Positions 6,297-44,213 of a stretch of 44,715 bases of DNA are shown here, piece after piece. Under the pieces are notes generated by a model. That model did not search any database and had not been told where the DNA came from. It saw nothing but the letters and a program-made list of their open reading frames with translations. The stretch lies in the NCBI GenBank assembly GCA_035461765.1, contig DATHUY010000112.1, forward strand, positions 1-44,715, read 5' to 3'. Within the stretch, counting starts at the first letter, position 1. Each line of letters opens with the position of its first letter. This stretch comes from Longimicrobiales bacterium (GTDB lineage: Bacteria > Gemmatimonadota > Gemmatimonadetes > Longimicrobiales > RSA9). The translations under genes were made by a program, and so were the position numbers.

Positions 6297-8083
6297 CAGT
6301 TCCGGAATGTGAAGATCTCGCCGCCTACGTTCTGGGTCCGGGATCGCACCAGCTGCCCGTCCGCCAGCCGCGTGTGCAGGCCACGACTCTCGCCGACCGA
6401 GAGCGAGATCCGGAAGTCGGCAAGGCCGGTGCCGCGGTCCAGCGGCCACGCGATGTCGATCCGGTACGTGGAACGGCTGCCTTCGGGAAAGGACGCCCGC
6501 AGACCCAGCCCCGCGGACGCCCGCCATCCGGAATCCGCACCGAACGGCGCGTCACCCGGCCAGATCCGGCCGACATCGGTGAATACCGTACCTCCCAGGT
6601 CCAGCACGTTGGGAAACGGCCAGCCGATGTAGAATCGGTCCTCCAGCGTGGCGACGAGGCGGCGGCCGCCCGGCAGGCGCTCGCGGTCGAAGCCGCGCAG
6701 TCCCGTGAGCCCGCCCAGCGTGAGCTGAAACGGTGTGCGCGTATTCCAGCCGCCCGCCAGCGCGGCGCGTGCGAAGATCGTCTGACGCGGAAGGAAGCCC
6801 GTCTGCAGGTACCCCATGACCTCCTGCTCCAGGTAAATGTCCTCCCACTCCGGCATGTCAGGGGCAGCGCGCAGATCGCGCCGCGCGTCCACGCGGCCGC
6901 GTCCGATCAGCAGGAAATCGCCCAGCTCGAAACCGGCATAGAGCGCCAGAGTCGTGTACAGGTCGTCGTCCGGCTCGAGGGAGCGCAGCGAGCGGCCGAC
7001 CCCGAGGATCGCCTCCGCGCCCAGCCGCACATCCTCCTGGCCGCGCATGCTGTCCAGTCCGCGTCGCCGCTGCCACCAGACATTCCGATGACCCAGCAGT
7101 CCGACCACGCGGATGTTGTCCAGGTCATGGCGCTGGCGCCGCACCGGGTCAGCCAGGGAGTCGTGCGCGGGCTCGCGCAGGTCGTAGTCCCCGCCGGGAG
7201 CCAGCTCGATGGCGCCGGGATAGCTGAGCTTCTGATAGCTCAGCGCTGCACCGACCAGGGCGGTGTTGCCGCGAGTGCCGATGCGTCGGATGACGGACAG
7301 GTCGAAGGCCTGCTCGCGCAGGGGCAGCACGACGTGGGAGGACCGGAGGTCCGGGTCGTCCTCGATGACGTAGTCGAACAGGCGGTCCTCACGGCGAAAG
7401 CTCTGGCGTCCGGCCCAGCGGCTGACCTCGGCGACAAAAGGGTACGCCACCTCCTGGTGTACGAGCGTACCCGCCCGTGTCTTCCCCAGCTCACTCGTCA
7501 GGTCCCAGCGCGTGCCGAGGACCTGCGGTGCGAAGTAGGAGATGCCGTAGTCGCGCGTGACGTCGCGCTCGTAGTAGAACATGCCGAGCGACTGTCCTGA
7601 GCCGAGCACGTTCTCCTCTACGATGCGCACGCCCTCGAAGCCGAGACCATCGTCCGTGCCGACGCGCAGGTCCAGACGGGTGCTCCATTCGTCGCGTGTA
7701 TTCACGATGACGTGATAGGTCCCGTCCGGCTGCCGCACGCCGAAGACATCGACGCTCGAGAGGAAGCTGTAGCCGCGCAGCAGCCGCTCCGTCTGCTCGA
7801 GCCGGTAGGGGTCGTAGCACGAGCCGGTGCCGAACAGCAGCTCGCGTCGGATCACCCAATCGCGCGTCCTGACATGCAATGCGTTTGCTGTGCGGTACGC
7901 CCAGCCGAAGCGGCGGCCGCCGTCGGTGTCACTCGTGTCGAAGATCGAGTTGTTGTCGATGAAGACATAGCTGATGCGGCCGAGCTCGCACGAGTCGACG
8001 GGCACTGACCTGTCCGGCTGTCCGGCAGTCGTCTGCGCCGGCAGCGGCGCTGCGAGCAGCGCGAGGAGAAGCGGGATGATCAT
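6296..8083 (-). CDS. Omp85/BamA-TamA-like outer membrane beta-barrel protein
   Basis: This 595-residue exported protein starts with a signal peptide (MIIPLLLALLAAPLPAQ). It has one recognisable POTRA-like region (about residues 50-120, with YRLEQTERLLRGYSFLSSVDV) followed by a long beta-strand-rich barrel. The barrel contains the GLRGFDRERLPGGRRLV motif resembling the VRGY/F-type loop of Omp85 surface antigens, and later the TVFTDVGRIW strand. It is shorter than BamA (usually five POTRA domains), so it is more like TamA-type or D15-like accessory barrels. The ATG at 8083 was chosen because the signal peptide begins there; the reading frame upstream is an antisense shadow of the pckA leader. 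It leads a leftward operon with the amidohydrolase and methyltransferase. An unusual point is that the C-terminus ends IFTFRN and not in a terminal aromatic residue. Confidence 0.82.
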   Translation of the reverse strand: MIIPLLLALLAAPLPAQTTAGQPDRSVPVDSCELGRISYVFIDNNSIFDTSDTDGGRRFGWAYRTANALHVRTRDWVIRRELLFGTGSCYDPYRLEQTERLLRGYSFLSSVDVFGVRQPDGTYHVIVNTRDEWSTRLDLRVGTDDGLGFEGVRIVEENVLGSGQSLGMFYYERDVTRDYGISYFAPQVLGTRWDLTSELGKTRAGTLVHQEVAYPFVAEVSRWAGRQSFRREDRLFDYVIEDDPDLRSSHVVLPLREQAFDLSVIRRIGTRGNTALVGAALSYQKLSYPGAIELAPGGDYDLREPAHDSLADPVRRQRHDLDNIRVVGLLGHRNVWWQRRRGLDSMRGQEDVRLGAEAILGVGRSLRSLEPDDDLYTTLALYAGFELGDFLLIGRGRVDARRDLRAAPDMPEWEDIYLEQEVMGYLQTGFLPRQTIFARAALAGGWNTRTPFQLTLGGLTGLRGFDRERLPGGRRLVATLEDRFYIGWPFPNVLDLGGTVFTDVGRIWPGDAPFGADSGWRASAGLGLRASFPEGSRSTYRIDIAWPLDRGTGLADFRISLSVGESRGLHTRLADGQLVRSRTQNVGGEIFTFRN

Positions 8084-8169
8084 CCGTGGAGACACCGGCG
8101 GAGAATAGGATGCACTCACGGCAAGGGAAAGGGTGCCCCGGACGGCGGCCGGGCGGGGCGCTCGCGTGC

Positions 8170-8199
8170 TTGACAGGCGGCGCGCGGTTCCCGTAGGCT
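8170..8199 (+). promoter_or_regulatory. sigma-70-type promoter of the PEP carboxykinase gene
   Basis: A perfect TTGACA at 8170-8175 is followed, after 18 bases, by TAGGCT at 8194-8199, which keeps the TA and final T of the -10 consensus. Transcription would begin near 8206, about 30 bases before the proposed GTG start. No competing pair of boxes was seen in the 151-base gap between the divergent barrel and carboxykinase genes. Confidence 0.6.
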
Positions 8200-8234
8200 T
8201 GCCAGTCTGTGAATACCTTCTCATAGAGGCGGAC

Positions 8235-9824
8235 GTGGCAACTGACATGGCGACAGCGGACCTGACGCGGCACGGCATCAACAGTCGCGGAACGGTCCAT
8301 TCGAACCTCTCCGCGCCGGTGCTCCTGGAGCACGCGGTTCGTCGCGGTGAGGGACATTTGACGAACGCAGGATCGTTCGTCGGCATGACAGCACCGCATA
8401 CGGGGCGCTCGCCGGACGACAAGTTCGTGGTGCGTGAGTCGTCGACGGAAGACCGGATCTGGTGGGGCAAGGTCAACGTGCCGATGGAGCAGGACCATTT
8501 CGCTGCTCTGTTGAATGACGTGCGCGAGCATCTGGCGGATCAGGAACTGTTCGTCTCGGACCTGTGGGCGGGTGCGGATCCAGACCACCGCCTGAACGTC
8601 CGCTTCGTGAGTCCGAACGCGTGGCACTCCGTGTTCGTGAACAACATGTTCATCAATCCGCCGGCCGATGCGCTGGACGGGTTCGAGCCGGGCTTCACCG
8701 TGCTGCATGCGCCGGAGATGGAAGCGGACCCGGCCAGGCACGGCACGCGCACGGGTACGTTCATCGCGCTCGACTTCTCGCAGCGCATCGTGCTGATCGG
8801 CGGCACCCGTTACGCGGGCGAGCTGAAGAAGTCGATCTTCACCGTGATGAATTTCCTGATGCCGCAGGAGGACGTGCTGCCGATGCATTGCTCGGCGAAC
8901 GTCGGCCCGACCGGCGATGTCGCGTTGTTCTTCGGGCTGTCCGGTACCGGCAAGACCACGCTGTCGGCGGATCCGGAGCGCGGTCTGATCGGTGATGATG
9001 AGCACGGCTGGTCCGAGAGCGGCGTCTTCAACTTCGAGGGCGGCAATTACGCGAAGGTCATCCGGCTGTCGGCGGAGGGGGAGCCGCTGATCCATGCGGC
9101 CAGCAATCGCTTCGGCGCCATCCTCGAGAACGTCTCGATGGATGAGAACACACGCGACGTCGATTTCGATGATGACTCCGTCACGGAGAACACACGCTCG
9201 TCGTACCCGATCTCGTTCATCCCGACTGCGGTGATGGAGGGGATGGCGGGACATCCCAATCACGTGGTGTTCCTCACGGCCGACGCGTTCGGCGTGATGC
9301 CGCCGATCTCGAAGCTCACGCCCGAGCAGGCGATGTACCATTTTCTGTCCGGCTACACGGCAAAGCTTGCGGGCACCGAGCGCGGCGTATCGGAGCCGAA
9401 GGCGGCGTTCAGCGCATGCTTCGGTGCACCGTTCCTGCCGCTGCCGCCGTCGGTGTATGCCGACATGCTCGGTGCCAAGCTCGCGCAGCACGGCGCGCAG
9501 GTGTGGCTCGTCAACACCGGCTGGACGGGCGGTGCGTTCGGCACGGGTACCCGGATGAAGCTCTCGTACACCCGGGCGATGGTACGGGCGGTGCTCAGCG
9601 GTGAGCTGGACAATGTGCAGACTCATCCCGACGCCGTGTTCGGACTGCACATTCCGCAGAGCGTACCGGGCGTGCCGGATGAGGTGCTGAATCCCCGTTC
9701 CACCTGGTCGGATCCGGCCGCGTACGATACGGCCGCGGCAAAGCTCGCGGGCATGTTCCGCGACAACTTCGACAAGTTCGCCGAAGGGGTCAGCGAAGCC
9801 GTACGCAAGGCGGGTCCCCGATGA
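8235..9824 (+). CDS. pckA: phosphoenolpyruvate carboxykinase (ATP)
   Basis: This protein of about 529 residues catalyses oxaloacetate + ATP to phosphoenolpyruvate + CO2 + ADP, the entry step of gluconeogenesis. It aligns by eye with E. coli PckA over its length: the TGRSPDDKF substrate loop near residue 56, the RYAGELKKS lysine segment near 192-200, MHCSANVG, the P-loop GLSGTGKTT at about 234-242, and the metal-binding LIGDDEHGW at about 251-259, then the late [10 protein letters not shown] segment. The GTG at 8235 was preferred because GAGG lies five bases upstream. The ATG at 8247 (525 residues) is the alternative but has no suitably spaced site. It is transcribed alone or with the HD gene 57 bases downstream, from which it is separated by a strong hairpin. 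Confidence 0.96.
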
Positions 9825-39952: not shown

Positions 39953-40131
39953 ATGGTCACTGGTCGTCGTCCGTGGCCGCAAAGCGCGAAAGATAGGGGC
40001 ACCGGCGGTGGGGCGGAAGGCACGGGGGCCGCTCGCGCGGCCGGGTGCAGCGCCCGCGCGCGCGGCTGCCTGCCGGCGCCTCGCCCGCAGCCCTCCTTCC
40101 CGTGACGCCGGAAATTCCTACTTTCCTCCGC

Positions 40132-41622
40132 ATGATCAACCTCAGTTTCGACGAGTTCCTGGAGGTGGTGCGTGCGGGCACGGCGACGGCCGTCCCGGTC
40201 ATGCACTCCTTTCTGTTTGACGCCGACACTGCCGTGACGGCTTATCACAAGCTGCGCCAGCCGCCGTTCGGGTTCCTGCTGGAGTCACTGGTCGGCGGCG
40301 AGAAGTGGGCCCGTTACACGTTCGTCGGCACGGCGCCGAAGAGTGCGTGGCGCCTGGCCGCGGACGGCCGCGTGAGTGAGTGGGCGCCGGACGGCGGGTG
40401 GAGTGCACCACGCGAGGTACCCGACCCGCTCGCCGAGCTGGACGCACGCCTGCGCGCCGTGCGCGTTGCCGATGTGCCCGGTGTGCCGCGCTTCACCGGC
40501 GGCGCGCTCGGGTTCCTCGGCTACGATGTGGTGCGCCGCATCGAGGCACTGCCGGATTCGCGGCCGGCGGATCCCGATGTCCCCGATGCGCTGCTGCTGT
40601 TCACGGACACGATCCTCGCGATCGACAACATCTACGGCCGGGCGCACGCTGTCACACTCGTGGACGTCGAGGATGTCGGCGATCGCGAGGATCTGCGTGC
40701 GAGGTACGACGAAGCAGTCCTGAAGCTGGCCGGACTGGTTGCAACGCTGGCGGATCGATCCGGTCCCGCCCAGATGCAGCTGCCCACTGCAACCACCGAC
40801 GTGGCATTCGAGAGCAGTTACGAACGAGCCGCATTCGAAAACGACGTCGAGCGGATCCGCGAATACATCACCGCGGGCGACGCATTCCAGGTGGTACTGA
40901 GCCAGCGCCTCACCGTGCCGGCGCCGCGCGACCCCTTCGATCTGTATCGCGCGCTGCGCGCTCTCAATCCGTCGCCCTACCTGTACTTCGTGGAGCTCGA
41001 CGGCATTGCCCTCGTGGGGTCCTCACCCGAAGTGCTGGTGCGCGTCGAGGACCGGACCGTCACCGTGAGACCGATTGCGGGGACGCGGCCGCGCGGCCGA
41101 ACCGACGCGGAGGATGAGGCCCTCATCGCTGATCTGCTCGCGGACAGGAAGGAGCGGTCGGAGCATCTGATGCTCGTCGACCTCGGCCGCAACGATGTCG
41201 GGCGCGTCGCCCGCTTCGGCTCCGTGCGGGTCCCGGCCTTCATGAGCGTCGAAAAATACAGTCACGTCCTCCATATCGTCAGCCAGGTGGAAGGCGAGCT
41301 GCGCGAAGGCATGTCCGCAATGGACGTATTCCGCGCATGCTTCCCCGCCGGCACGGTTTCCGGTGCGCCGAAGATCCGCGCGATGCAGATCATCGACGAG
41401 CTGGAGCCGGTGCGGCGCGGCATCTACGCGGGCGCCGTCGGGTACTTCGCGTACGGCGGCGCGACGATGGATACCGCCATCGCGATCCGGACCATCGTCG
41501 TGAGAGAAGGTGTCGCGTACGTGCAGGCAGGGGCGGGCATCGTCGCGGATTCCGATCCGGGGCGGGAGTACGAGGAGACGCTCGCCAAGGCGCGGGCGCT
41601 GCTTCGTGTGCTCGCCGGGTGA
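40132..41622 (+). CDS. trpE: anthranilate synthase component I
   Basis: This 496-residue enzyme converts chorismate to anthranilate with ammonia or glutamine from TrpG, the first step of tryptophan synthesis. The chorismate-binding block is clear: GDAFQVVLSQRL, NPSPYLYFVELDG, LVGSSPEVLVRV, PIAGTRPRGRT (which separates TrpE from PabB), LVDLGRNDVGR, CFPAGTVSGAPKIRAMQIIDELEPVRRG (abbreviated) and VQAGAGIVADSDPGREYEET. The N-terminal LLES at residues 49-52 is the tryptophan feedback-binding element, so the enzyme should be inhibited by Trp. It stands alone: no trpG or other trp gene is beside it. No leader peptide or T-box is visible. A TACTTT lies only eight bases before the ATG, so a leaderless transcript is conceivable. 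Confidence 0.95.
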   Translation: MINLSFDEFLEVVRAGTATAVPVMHSFLFDADTAVTAYHKLRQPPFGFLLESLVGGEKWARYTFVGTAPKSAWRLAADGRVSEWAPDGGWSAPREVPDPLAELDARLRAVRVADVPGVPRFTGGALGFLGYDVVRRIEALPDSRPADPDVPDALLLFTDTILAIDNIYGRAHAVTLVDVEDVGDREDLRARYDEAVLKLAGLVATLADRSGPAQMQLPTATTDVAFESSYERAAFENDVERIREYITAGDAFQVVLSQRLTVPAPRDPFDLYRALRALNPSPYLYFVELDGIALVGSSPEVLVRVEDRTVTVRPIAGTRPRGRTDAEDEALIADLLADRKERSEHLMLVDLGRNDVGRVARFGSVRVPAFMSVEKYSHVLHIVSQVEGELREGMSAMDVFRACFPAGTVSGAPKIRAMQIIDELEPVRRGIYAGAVGYFAYGGATMDTAIAIRTIVVREGVAYVQAGAGIVADSDPGREYEETLAKARALLRVLAG

Positions 41623-41660
41623 GGTGCGGTGCTGCGGCAGCCCCTTCCTTCTCTAACGGC

Positions 41661-41917
41661 GGTGTCAGGTTGTCATGGGCAATGGGCAGAGGCAGGGGCA
41701 TGTGGAAGGCGCACGCACACGTTTAGGGGCACGGGCAGAGGCAGCCAGCCTTCCTTCGCGTGAGTCACCTTCCCCGACTATTTCCGGGGCAGGTTCGCTG
41801 CGCGGAGGAACGAGGTAGGGACGGCCCTGGTGGCATGCTGCCCGTGCCTCTGCCCGTAAACTGCGTGCGCCTTCCACATGCCCGTGCACGTGCCCACGCC
41901 CATGACAACCTGACACC
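41661..41917. repeat. 257-bp element with ~80-bp imperfect inverted arms
   Basis: The left arm (about 41661-41744) and right arm (about 41838-41917) are imperfect inverse complements. Both begin with GGTGTCAGGTTGTCATGGGC, continue with a shared GGGCATGTGGAAGGCGCACG block, and end in GGGCAGAGGCA/CGGGCAGAGGCA repeats. The middle of about 95 bases is unrelated and contains no gene. The element fills the space between the convergent ends of trpE and the GWxTD gene (38 and 13 bases away). It may be a non-autonomous mobile repeat (MITE/REP-like) that also works as a bidirectional terminator. No clear target-site duplication is seen. Confidence 0.85.
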
Positions 41918-41930
41918 AATCCGCCGGACG

Positions 41931-44213
41931 CTAGCGCTCGACCGTGAACTCCGATGATGTCGACGCGGTCAGCCCGTCGGCAGTCGTGACGGTGACGACC
42001 ATGCGGTAGCTCCCCTGCGCCAGATCACTGGCCAGCTCGCGCGTCTGCGGCATGACCCCGTCGGCGTCCGGCGCAGCGACATCGTCGAACCGGACGTCTA
42101 CGGCGCGGCGTCCGCCTCCGAATAGCCCGCGCAGTGCGCCGAGCACCCCGCCGCGTTCCACCGGCTCCACCGTGATACGTGTGGAGAACGTCCGATCGGG
42201 CGTGAGATTGTAGACCTCGTAGTAGATCGTGAAGGGGCGGTCACGTGCGAACTCACGCGGGAGCGCGAGCGCGAACGTCTCGCCACCGCGCCGCCAGTCG
42301 CCTACGGAATCCGGGTGCGCCAGCACGATGTCGCTCACCATGACACCGGTGTCCGTGTAGTCGCGCACCGTGCTCGTGCCGGTCACCAGCTGGCCGCGCC
42401 CGCTGCCGGAGTCGGCGGCGACCAGGCGGTAGACGGCATCATCGGATGGTTGCGCGGCCATGCTGAGATTCGTGCGCACGAGCGTCTCCGGAGCGGGCGC
42501 CCGTGCGAAGCGGAAATGAATGACACTGTCGCGCCGGGTCACGACGTCGAACAGCGTATCGGTCACGATCACCGAGAACTGAACTGCGTACTCCACGCCG
42601 CCATCGACCGTGCGAGGCTCCAGCAGGCCGGCGGGAATGGCGAATGCCGCAGTGAGGTCGGTGCGCGCCTCCGGCGTTCGGAACGTGAACACATCGTGAT
42701 GGAACGGCAGCGCGTCGGTGTAGCTGCGCTCGTATGAATCTGTGCGGATGGCGGCACGCGCACCGCTGCGGTATTCCGCATCCGCCACCTCGAGCAGGTT
42801 GCGCATCTCGGTGCCCTCGAGGTTGATGCCGGGCGCCTGGGCGAGCAGCCGGTTCAGCCGACCGAATACCGCGCGGTAGCGCGGCTCGTAGGGAGCGCGG
42901 TCGCCCACGAGCGAGAGGATAGCGCCGGCGCGGGGATCCGTGTCGAGGCCCGGTGTCGGATCCATCGCCTCGAGCAGGTCGCGCACGAGCGAGAAGTTCT
43001 GGGTCCCGCGCGAGGCGACGAAGTGGAACAGCTGGCCGCCGTGATCGGGCAGTTCGTAATACCAGCTCTCGTTGGGCAGCACGCCGCGATGCGTCGTGCG
43101 GATGACGCTGAGCGGCTCGCCGTGGCGGATGAGGACGACACCGCGGTCATCGAATGGAAATCGCTGCGGCGCCTCGCCGGCCAGCAGAACGCCCTGGCTG
43201 TCCGTGCCCCGGACGGAGTTGCGCACGTAGCGGGAGCGCGCGGCCGTGAGTCTGCGGTAGTGTTCGGCGATGCGCTCCGTGGCGGTCACGCCGCCCGTCG
43301 CGGCGCGCGTTGCCCACAACCGGTCGAACCACATCCGGCGACCCTCCAGGTCCGCCGCGCGCCAGTCCGCTTCCTCCGCGGGCGTGAGCAGCACTTCCAC
43401 GTCGCGGTAGTACTGGCGGGCCGTCTCTTCGGTGAGGAGCTCGATACCCTGCCAGTACGCGGCGGCGCCCTCCCTCTCCGATCCCGGCTGGAGCATGAGC
43501 GCGATCGCGCGCGTGCGCAGGACGCCGGCGTCTTCCGCATCGTCGGAGAGCTCTCCTGCCGCGGCATAGTTACCGAGCGCGATCTCCATATCGGCCAGCG
43601 CGCGTGTGCTCCGCGGCGTCATGCCGCCGGCGGCATCCACCGCCCGCAGCGCGTTGCGTGCTTCCTCGATCAGCTCGCGGCTCCTGCCGCCATCCGCCAC
43701 CGCCAGCTCCGACAGCAGGACGGCTGCATCGCCGAACGACGGGTCGAGCTCCAGCGCCCGGCGGAGCGAGCGCCGCGCCTTCGACTTCGGGTCGCGGCCG
43801 AAGATCTCCGCGAAGGACTGCCCCACGGTTACGCTGTTCAGCACCCCCCCGGGCACGGACAGCCGGACCTCGGGCCCGTGCGCGAGCGCGAGCGCGAGTC
43901 CGTAATGACCCCAGATCTCCGCCGGAAACCGTTCGGCGGCCGTCCGGAAGACGTCCCGCGAGCGGTCGGCATCGGCCCGGTCGCCCGTCAGCTCCCAGAT
44001 CCGGAGCGCGATCAGGCCGCGGCGCACCACGGGCTCGAGCTGGCGCGCGGCGCCGGGCGGCTCCACCGCGCGCTCCATCCGGAACAGGAGCGGGACGTCG
44101 GAGATGGCGGCCAGTGAGTCCTGGAAAGGGCCGAAGTCCGCATGCTGGGCGGAGATAGCACCGGGCGCAGCACTCAGCGCCAGACCGGCGAGAAGAACGT
44201 GAAGCGGTCTCAT
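41931..44213 (-). CDS. exported GWxTD-domain-like protein
   Basis: This 760-residue protein has a signal peptide (LLAGLALSAAPGAISAQ), then a helical, TPR-like half to about residue 330 (LRIWELTGDRADADRSRDVFRTAAERFP and similar, abbreviated; YGLALALAHG, RRALELDPSFGDAAVLLSELA), then the region around FPFDDRGVVLIRHGEP that corresponds to the GWxTDRG...YGxP core of GWxTD proteins but with the Gly-Trp replaced. The rest is beta-rich, with an Ig-like end. GWxTD proteins occur mainly in Bacteroidota, Acidobacteriota and Gemmatimonadota and have no proven activity. GGAG six bases before the ATG supports the start. It appears to be a single-gene unit with its own promoter. Confidence 0.82.
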   Translation of the reverse strand: MRPLHVLLAGLALSAAPGAISAQHADFGPFQDSLAAISDVPLLFRMERAVEPPGAARQLEPVVRRGLIALRIWELTGDRADADRSRDVFRTAAERFPAEIWGHYGLALALAHGPEVRLSVPGGVLNSVTVGQSFAEIFGRDPKSKARRSLRRALELDPSFGDAAVLLSELAVADGGRSRELIEEARNALRAVDAAGGMTPRSTRALADMEIALGNYAAAGELSDDAEDAGVLRTRAIALMLQPGSEREGAAAYWQGIELLTEETARQYYRDVEVLLTPAEEADWRAADLEGRRMWFDRLWATRAATGGVTATERIAEHYRRLTAARSRYVRNSVRGTDSQGVLLAGEAPQRFPFDDRGVVLIRHGEPLSVIRTTHRGVLPNESWYYELPDHGGQLFHFVASRGTQNFSLVRDLLEAMDPTPGLDTDPRAGAILSLVGDRAPYEPRYRAVFGRLNRLLAQAPGINLEGTEMRNLLEVADAEYRSGARAAIRTDSYERSYTDALPFHHDVFTFRTPEARTDLTAAFAIPAGLLEPRTVDGGVEYAVQFSVIVTDTLFDVVTRRDSVIHFRFARAPAPETLVRTNLSMAAQPSDDAVYRLVAADSGSGRGQLVTGTSTVRDYTDTGVMVSDIVLAHPDSVGDWRRGGETFALALPREFARDRPFTIYYEVYNLTPDRTFSTRITVEPVERGGVLGALRGLFGGGRRAVDVRFDDVAAPDADGVMPQTRELASDLAQGSYRMVVTVTTADGLTASTSSEFTVER

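Follow-up and report, generated by a model that had tools for sequence, protein, structure and literature searches.

Introduction

Intervening sequences (IVSs) of 23S rRNA genes, known from Coxiella burnetii (PMC4990558) and from Leptospira, have terminal inverted repeats that form a stem, with an ORF for a four-helix-bundle protein (S23 or IVP) lying between them. In PMC4990558 the PF05635 family is described as that of the ORF in rRNA intervening sequences, the termini of which are inverted repeats, and XCC0516 as a homopentamer of four-helix bundles. IVSs are sporadically distributed and regarded as selfish. The paper terms the nature of the IVS and the role of its conserved protein unclear, and cites the idea that the IVS ORF served mobility. 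Two other kinds of DNA bear comparison with the element reported here: bacterial MITEs, which like it are short and ORF-less, with terminal inverted repeats, dispersed intergenic copies and no transposase ORF, and REP/BIME repeats with RAYT, which are likewise extragenic and palindromic and occur alongside Y1 genes in the genome. The Avd protein of diversity-generating retroelements is a pentamer of four-helix bundles and is related to IVP.

The element lies in a window of 44,715 nt, the whole stretch of DNA that was analysed, which is contig C112 of a 4.68 Mb Gemmatimonadota MAG. It differs from the 23S rRNA IVSs in that it and its relatives are intergenic and outside rRNA, their arms are word repeats, and ORF-less dispersed copies exist; an ORF between complementary termini is absent from the window copy but present in a copy of a congener (G001:C77).

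Anatomy and folding of the window element

The features of the element and its neighbours are as follows.

40045..41622, + strand: left neighbour ORF, 525 aa, presumably anthranilate synthase component I (trpE-like) from the way its product reads; similar DNA in 20 of the 21 genomes searched, own included
41655..41660, + strand: AACGGC, left outer end motif, common to most copies and adjoining GGTGTCAGG
41661..41680, + strand: left perfect terminal inverted repeat, 20 nt
41661..41745, + strand: left arm, made up of the terminal repeat, hexamer words GGGCAN/AGGCAN and the conserved core
41698..41725, + strand: core, 28 nt, GCATGTGGAAGGCGCACGCACACGTTTA, nearly all copies having it almost unchanged in both arms (arm alignment, 19 copies)
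41746..41835, strand unassigned: variable centre separating the arms, itself foldable, without an ORF
41836..41917, - strand: right arm
41857..41881, - strand: right-arm core, with a 3-nt deletion relative to other copies
41898..41917, - strand: right perfect terminal inverted repeat, 20 nt
41931..44213, - strand: right neighbour ORF, convergent, 760 aa, its product taken by us to be a GWxTD-domain protein

The element at 41661-41917 is 257 bp long and intergenic, starting 39 nt after the end of the left gene and stopping 14 nt short of the right one, and the gene calls bear out the convergent neighbours given in the initial annotation. Also borne out were the identical 20-base inverted ends, which are perfect, and the imperfect inverted arms with shared blocks, as a second arm block (41683-41717 / 41862-41896) matches at 89% and GGGCAGAGGCA blocks are present. 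The 20-mer end, with as many as 3 mismatches allowed, matches the window at its two places only, and shuffles average 0.02 matches. The limits first drawn need slight widening: the 20-nt ends are real, but judged from other copies both conserved ends reach a few bases further, to include AACGGC at the left end and, beyond 41917 at the right one, a degenerate GCCGTT/ATCCGTT-like sequence.

Both arms contain GGGCAN words, with a lag-6 self-match of 0.50 in the left arm and 0.49 in the right. Read by eye, the second GGGCAN word ends in G in one arm and in C in the other in most copies, so there are two distinct arm types and hence a defined left and right of the element. ORF calling across the window copy found no ORF, and weak ORFs overlapping three other copies (C140a, C54a and C1) were taken as spurious; the IVP gene in the G001:C77 copy, described below, was called as well.

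Folded as RNA, the + strand alone reached -201.2 kcal/mol, whereas shuffled sequences averaged -126.3 (z -13.4). The hairpin proposed earlier stands as a strong predicted fold of this strand, but its claimed loop of ~95 bases is largely paired in the predicted structure. Covariation between arms was absent, with an unpaired fraction of 0.171 within elements and 0.149 between elements (18 elements; C167 was excluded as a second assembly of C54a), and selection on RNA pairing thus gains no support from it. That the arms within one element differ more than those of different elements is most simply explained if the arm types diverged before the family spread. Rfam gave no match around the window element, even at an E of 1.

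Copies in the genome and in a congener

BLAST of the element against its own genome gave 38 matches, which resolve into at least 13 distinct dispersed places. Seven are of ~257 bp (C112, C140 twice, C150 twice, C71 and C146), four are of ~335 bp (C54 twice, C168 and C51), and two are one-sided (C1 and C4). Near-identical copies occur between unrelated flanks, C140b and C71 being 98% identical and C51 and C54a 99%. Copies C54a and C167 were counted once because they have common flanks and were taken as two assemblies of one place. The element versions at the start of C54 (L151) and the end of C167 (L155) are 94% identical to each other, the C54 version being the one at 99% to C51; copy exchange, a strain mixture or assembly error are possible reasons for the discrepancy. 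A 13-mer end motif matched the own genome, a fragmented assembly, 22 times at up to one mismatch (0 for the reversed control), and every match was an element copy except a lone one at C71:8020.

The element is present in two of 61 genomes, the own genome included; the other is G001, a congener, so that its occurrence is within one genus. A 16-mer scan of other genome contigs returned 73 stretches and found the element only in those of SH-MAG3 (6 loci), which was taken as the same assembly as G001 and not as a third carrier genome. One stretch (L039) has a 20-nt match only, and the remainder look like chance. A scan of viral contigs gave four stretches, none with an element match.

In G001 the junction corresponding to that of the window is 78 nt long as opposed to 313, with no inverted repeat, and the element is absent. 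This site without the element, together with the dispersed copies, indicates that the element is dispersed and mobile-looking. The non-autonomous element of mobile appearance suggested by the initial annotation has many copies with conserved arms, contrary to the single copy with unconserved arms by which the annotation would have been refuted, and is ORF-less in the window. The element is also absent from the counterpart of the C71 site (G001:C25), where divergence of the intergenic DNA prevents the insertion point from being located. C51 was considered as an empty site in G001 and rejected, since the same position is occupied there. Given that C51 and its G001 counterpart are at the same site, yet C51 is closest to C54a, copy exchange may mimic movement, and exchange among C51, C54a and C167 could explain part of the similarity between places. 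Target-site duplication was not found in 15 copies, the mean longest direct match being 4.27 compared with 4.21 in shuffled sequence.

Two further arrangements were seen. On C150 (L148) of the own genome, a gene of 533 aa at 7099-8697 lies between two element copies ~2 kb apart, possibly as a composite unit. At the element's end on G001:C22 (L160), a short palindrome, GTAGTGGGTCA / TGACCCACTAC, has a copy of AACGGCGG on each side, the arrangement to be expected had another small palindromic insert entered there.

ORF-bearing relatives

On G001:C77, close to a contig end, two arms ~500 nt apart surround an intact gene. They are 91% and 88% identical to the window arms, and this is the single case of an ORF-bearing form with window-type arms. 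The product of the gene matches PF05635 '23S_rRNA_IVP' (E 8.6e-19), TIGR02436 'four helix bundle protein' (E 1.3e-16) and the solved structure of XCC0516 from Xanthomonas (PDB 2gsc, E 9.3e-7). The sole PF05635 gene of the own genome (L197, C39:61502-61813) is enclosed by arms of CACGCG-like words, the left one opening with AACGGC, and these arms have no sequence kinship with those of the window element.

A comparable pairing was found in another genus. At the locus orthologous to that of the C51 copy, genome G005 has a distinct ORF-less element with inverted arms. This element aligns with the arm on each side of the gene in the PF05635 cassette of the same genome (E 2.4e-16 to 1.2e-13). It has further matches on 13 contigs, the total of 25 matches counting both strands of the same places. 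The pairing of ORF-less dispersed copies with one IVP cassette having the same arms is therefore seen twice, with unrelated arm sequences. The ORF-less family of G005 (L298, L300) ends in GAACGGCGGG, close to the AACGGCGGTG of the window family, and the two may represent a shared recognition end.

Inverted arms around PF05635 genes

A PF05635 search of the 61 relatives gave 64 matches in 23 of them, and 51 were examined (30 automatically and 21 by place). Flanks cut by contig ends reduced the usable Gemmatimonadota loci to 49 with 350-nt flanks and 47 with 300-nt flanks. At 37 of the 47 loci with 300-nt flanks the gene was enclosed by an inverted repeat scoring 35 bits or higher, the other 10 falling below this cut, as compared with 1 of 82 same-locus pseudo-gene controls. 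Among predicted-gene controls one gene in 192 had such a repeat, and this gene has a copy of the present element on either side. With 350-nt flanks the figures were 38/49 for PF05635 loci and 0/380 for random windows. Mismatched flanks reached 35 bits in 5 of 294 cases, one of them at 359 bits, and these matches presumably stem from related loci.

The same arrangement was looked for outside the phylum in hand-picked genomes: 34 of the 73 loci of the 16-mer scan were chosen by hand, giving 33 genomes, 78 matches and 30 loci, 29 of them usable. Here 7 of the 29 loci reached 35 bits (22 fell below) and 16 reached 28 bits, and the controls gave 0/56 at both cuts. The enclosure signal is weaker in these other phyla than in Gemmatimonadota. 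In plasmids there were 6 weak PF05635 matches.

The arms are arrays of degenerate words, GGGGAAT, GTGCCCA and AAATGAC being examples at PF05635 cassettes. A period of 6, 7 or 8 nt was the best in 45 of the 54 arms on which periodicity was read (those of at least 28 bits and at least 22 nt). None of 20 own-family IVP loci matched a known RNA family in Rfam, and these cassettes are therefore not in rRNA. The outer motif AACGGC was found at 5/26 left and 3/26 right ends of other IVP cassettes, as against 0/52 when reversed and 52 of 1894 background windows, which is suggestive only of a motif common to other cassettes of the family. Genome G010 has a further IVP cassette, one arm of which is found at other places too. 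Two PF05635 cassettes, L192 in G009 and L208 in G005, apparently occupy the same site, upstream of what we take to be a metH-like gene, with quite different arm words; arms may therefore turn over yet remain inverted.

Explanations for the element and its spread

Judged from anatomy and kinship, the window element is probably MITE-like, an ORF-less copy of an element with long inverted arms that in its ORF-bearing form carries an IVP/S23 gene outside rRNA. The observations to which this reading answers are the copy number, the shared arms, the intact IVP gene in one copy, the one site without the element and the phylum-wide enclosure. Were the element instead an ordinary MITE, mobilised by a DDE-type transposase that recognises the AACGGCGGTGTCAGG ends and escaped detection, with the IVP gene at G001:C77 as a passenger caught between two arms, the same terminal inverted repeats, near-identical dispersed copies and intergenic sites would be expected, and IS present in many copies frequently drop out of MAG assemblies. 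Neither target duplication nor a parental transposase with these ends was found, the latter by end motif in a fragmented assembly where C71:8020 is the sole match outside element copies. The arms around PF05635 genes throughout the phylum and the repeat of the ORF-less/ORF-bearing pairing in G005 with unrelated arms are not explained by a chance passenger. We therefore regard the ordinary MITE as unlikely, and IVP rather than a transposase as the likely partner gene of the window element.

The likeness to REP/BIME repeats drawn in the initial annotation would imply spread by a REP-associated Y1 (tyrosine) transposase, and two Y1 genes (PF01797) are present in the own genome near opposite ends of C107, at 2385-2699 (L109) and 99619-99936 (L108). 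Neither the element nor its end motif, whichever the orientation, occurs within the 2.9 and 3.3 kb around them; the ends of the element differ from those of REPs, and at 257-340 bp the repeat is too long, REPs being 20-40 nt. This origin is scarcely credible. The C-terminal stretch of the Y1 genes reads like a helix-turn-helix. The element might also be a static structure that serves the trpE-like/GWxTD-like gene pair as a bidirectional terminator or a regulatory hairpin. This would fit a strong hairpin between convergent genes, but the same junction in the congener is without the element, and convergent neighbours are the minority: of the 19 copies for which both were assessed, 5 have them, 11 being co-directional and 3 divergent (a GC-frame rule of our own, and no gene finder, was used to call the neighbours). 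The dispersed copies refute such an origin, and we consider it very improbable; the hairpin may still have a secondary role as a terminator.

For the IVP-linked element that we favour, spread might proceed as follows. An element strand, DNA or RNA, would fold into a hairpin, and the IVP protein from an ORF-bearing copy, pentameric in the solved relative, would bind the repeated-word arms in trans and so act on ORF-less copies. Copies would spread to intergenic sites with the aid of the host or of a putative recombinase, without detectable target duplication. That IVP itself drives the movement is conceivable, although we doubt it; no enzyme with known strand-transfer chemistry was found. A retroelement moved in trans by a reverse transcriptase was considered and rejected, as the RVT_1 domain (PF00078) was absent from all four genomes searched (controls were positive in 3 of 14), which leaves reverse transcription in trans without a candidate and sets the element apart from the Avd systems.

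Significance

The IVP protein and the MITE-like repeat are both known kinds; their combination outside rRNA appears to be the new part, as no description of such cassettes was found among open-licence PMC papers. The link to the IVP gene family lay outside the view of the initial annotation, which was made from sequence alone. The pairing with G001:C77 suggests that the rRNA inserts are part of a broader class of mobile DNA. As a tentative extension, IVP/S23 genes across bacteria may be the protein part of an unrecorded class of small mobile elements, in which inverted arms of 6-8-nt words surround a gene for a four-helix bundle and ORF-less satellites are moved in trans; the 23S rRNA IVSs would be no more than the insertions that landed in rRNA. 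The mobility idea becomes concrete and testable with IVP genes routinely enclosed by word-repeat arms away from rRNA and with dispersed ORF-less satellites known from two genera or more, and a large family that carries no annotation beyond 'four helix bundle protein' gains a function that can be sought.
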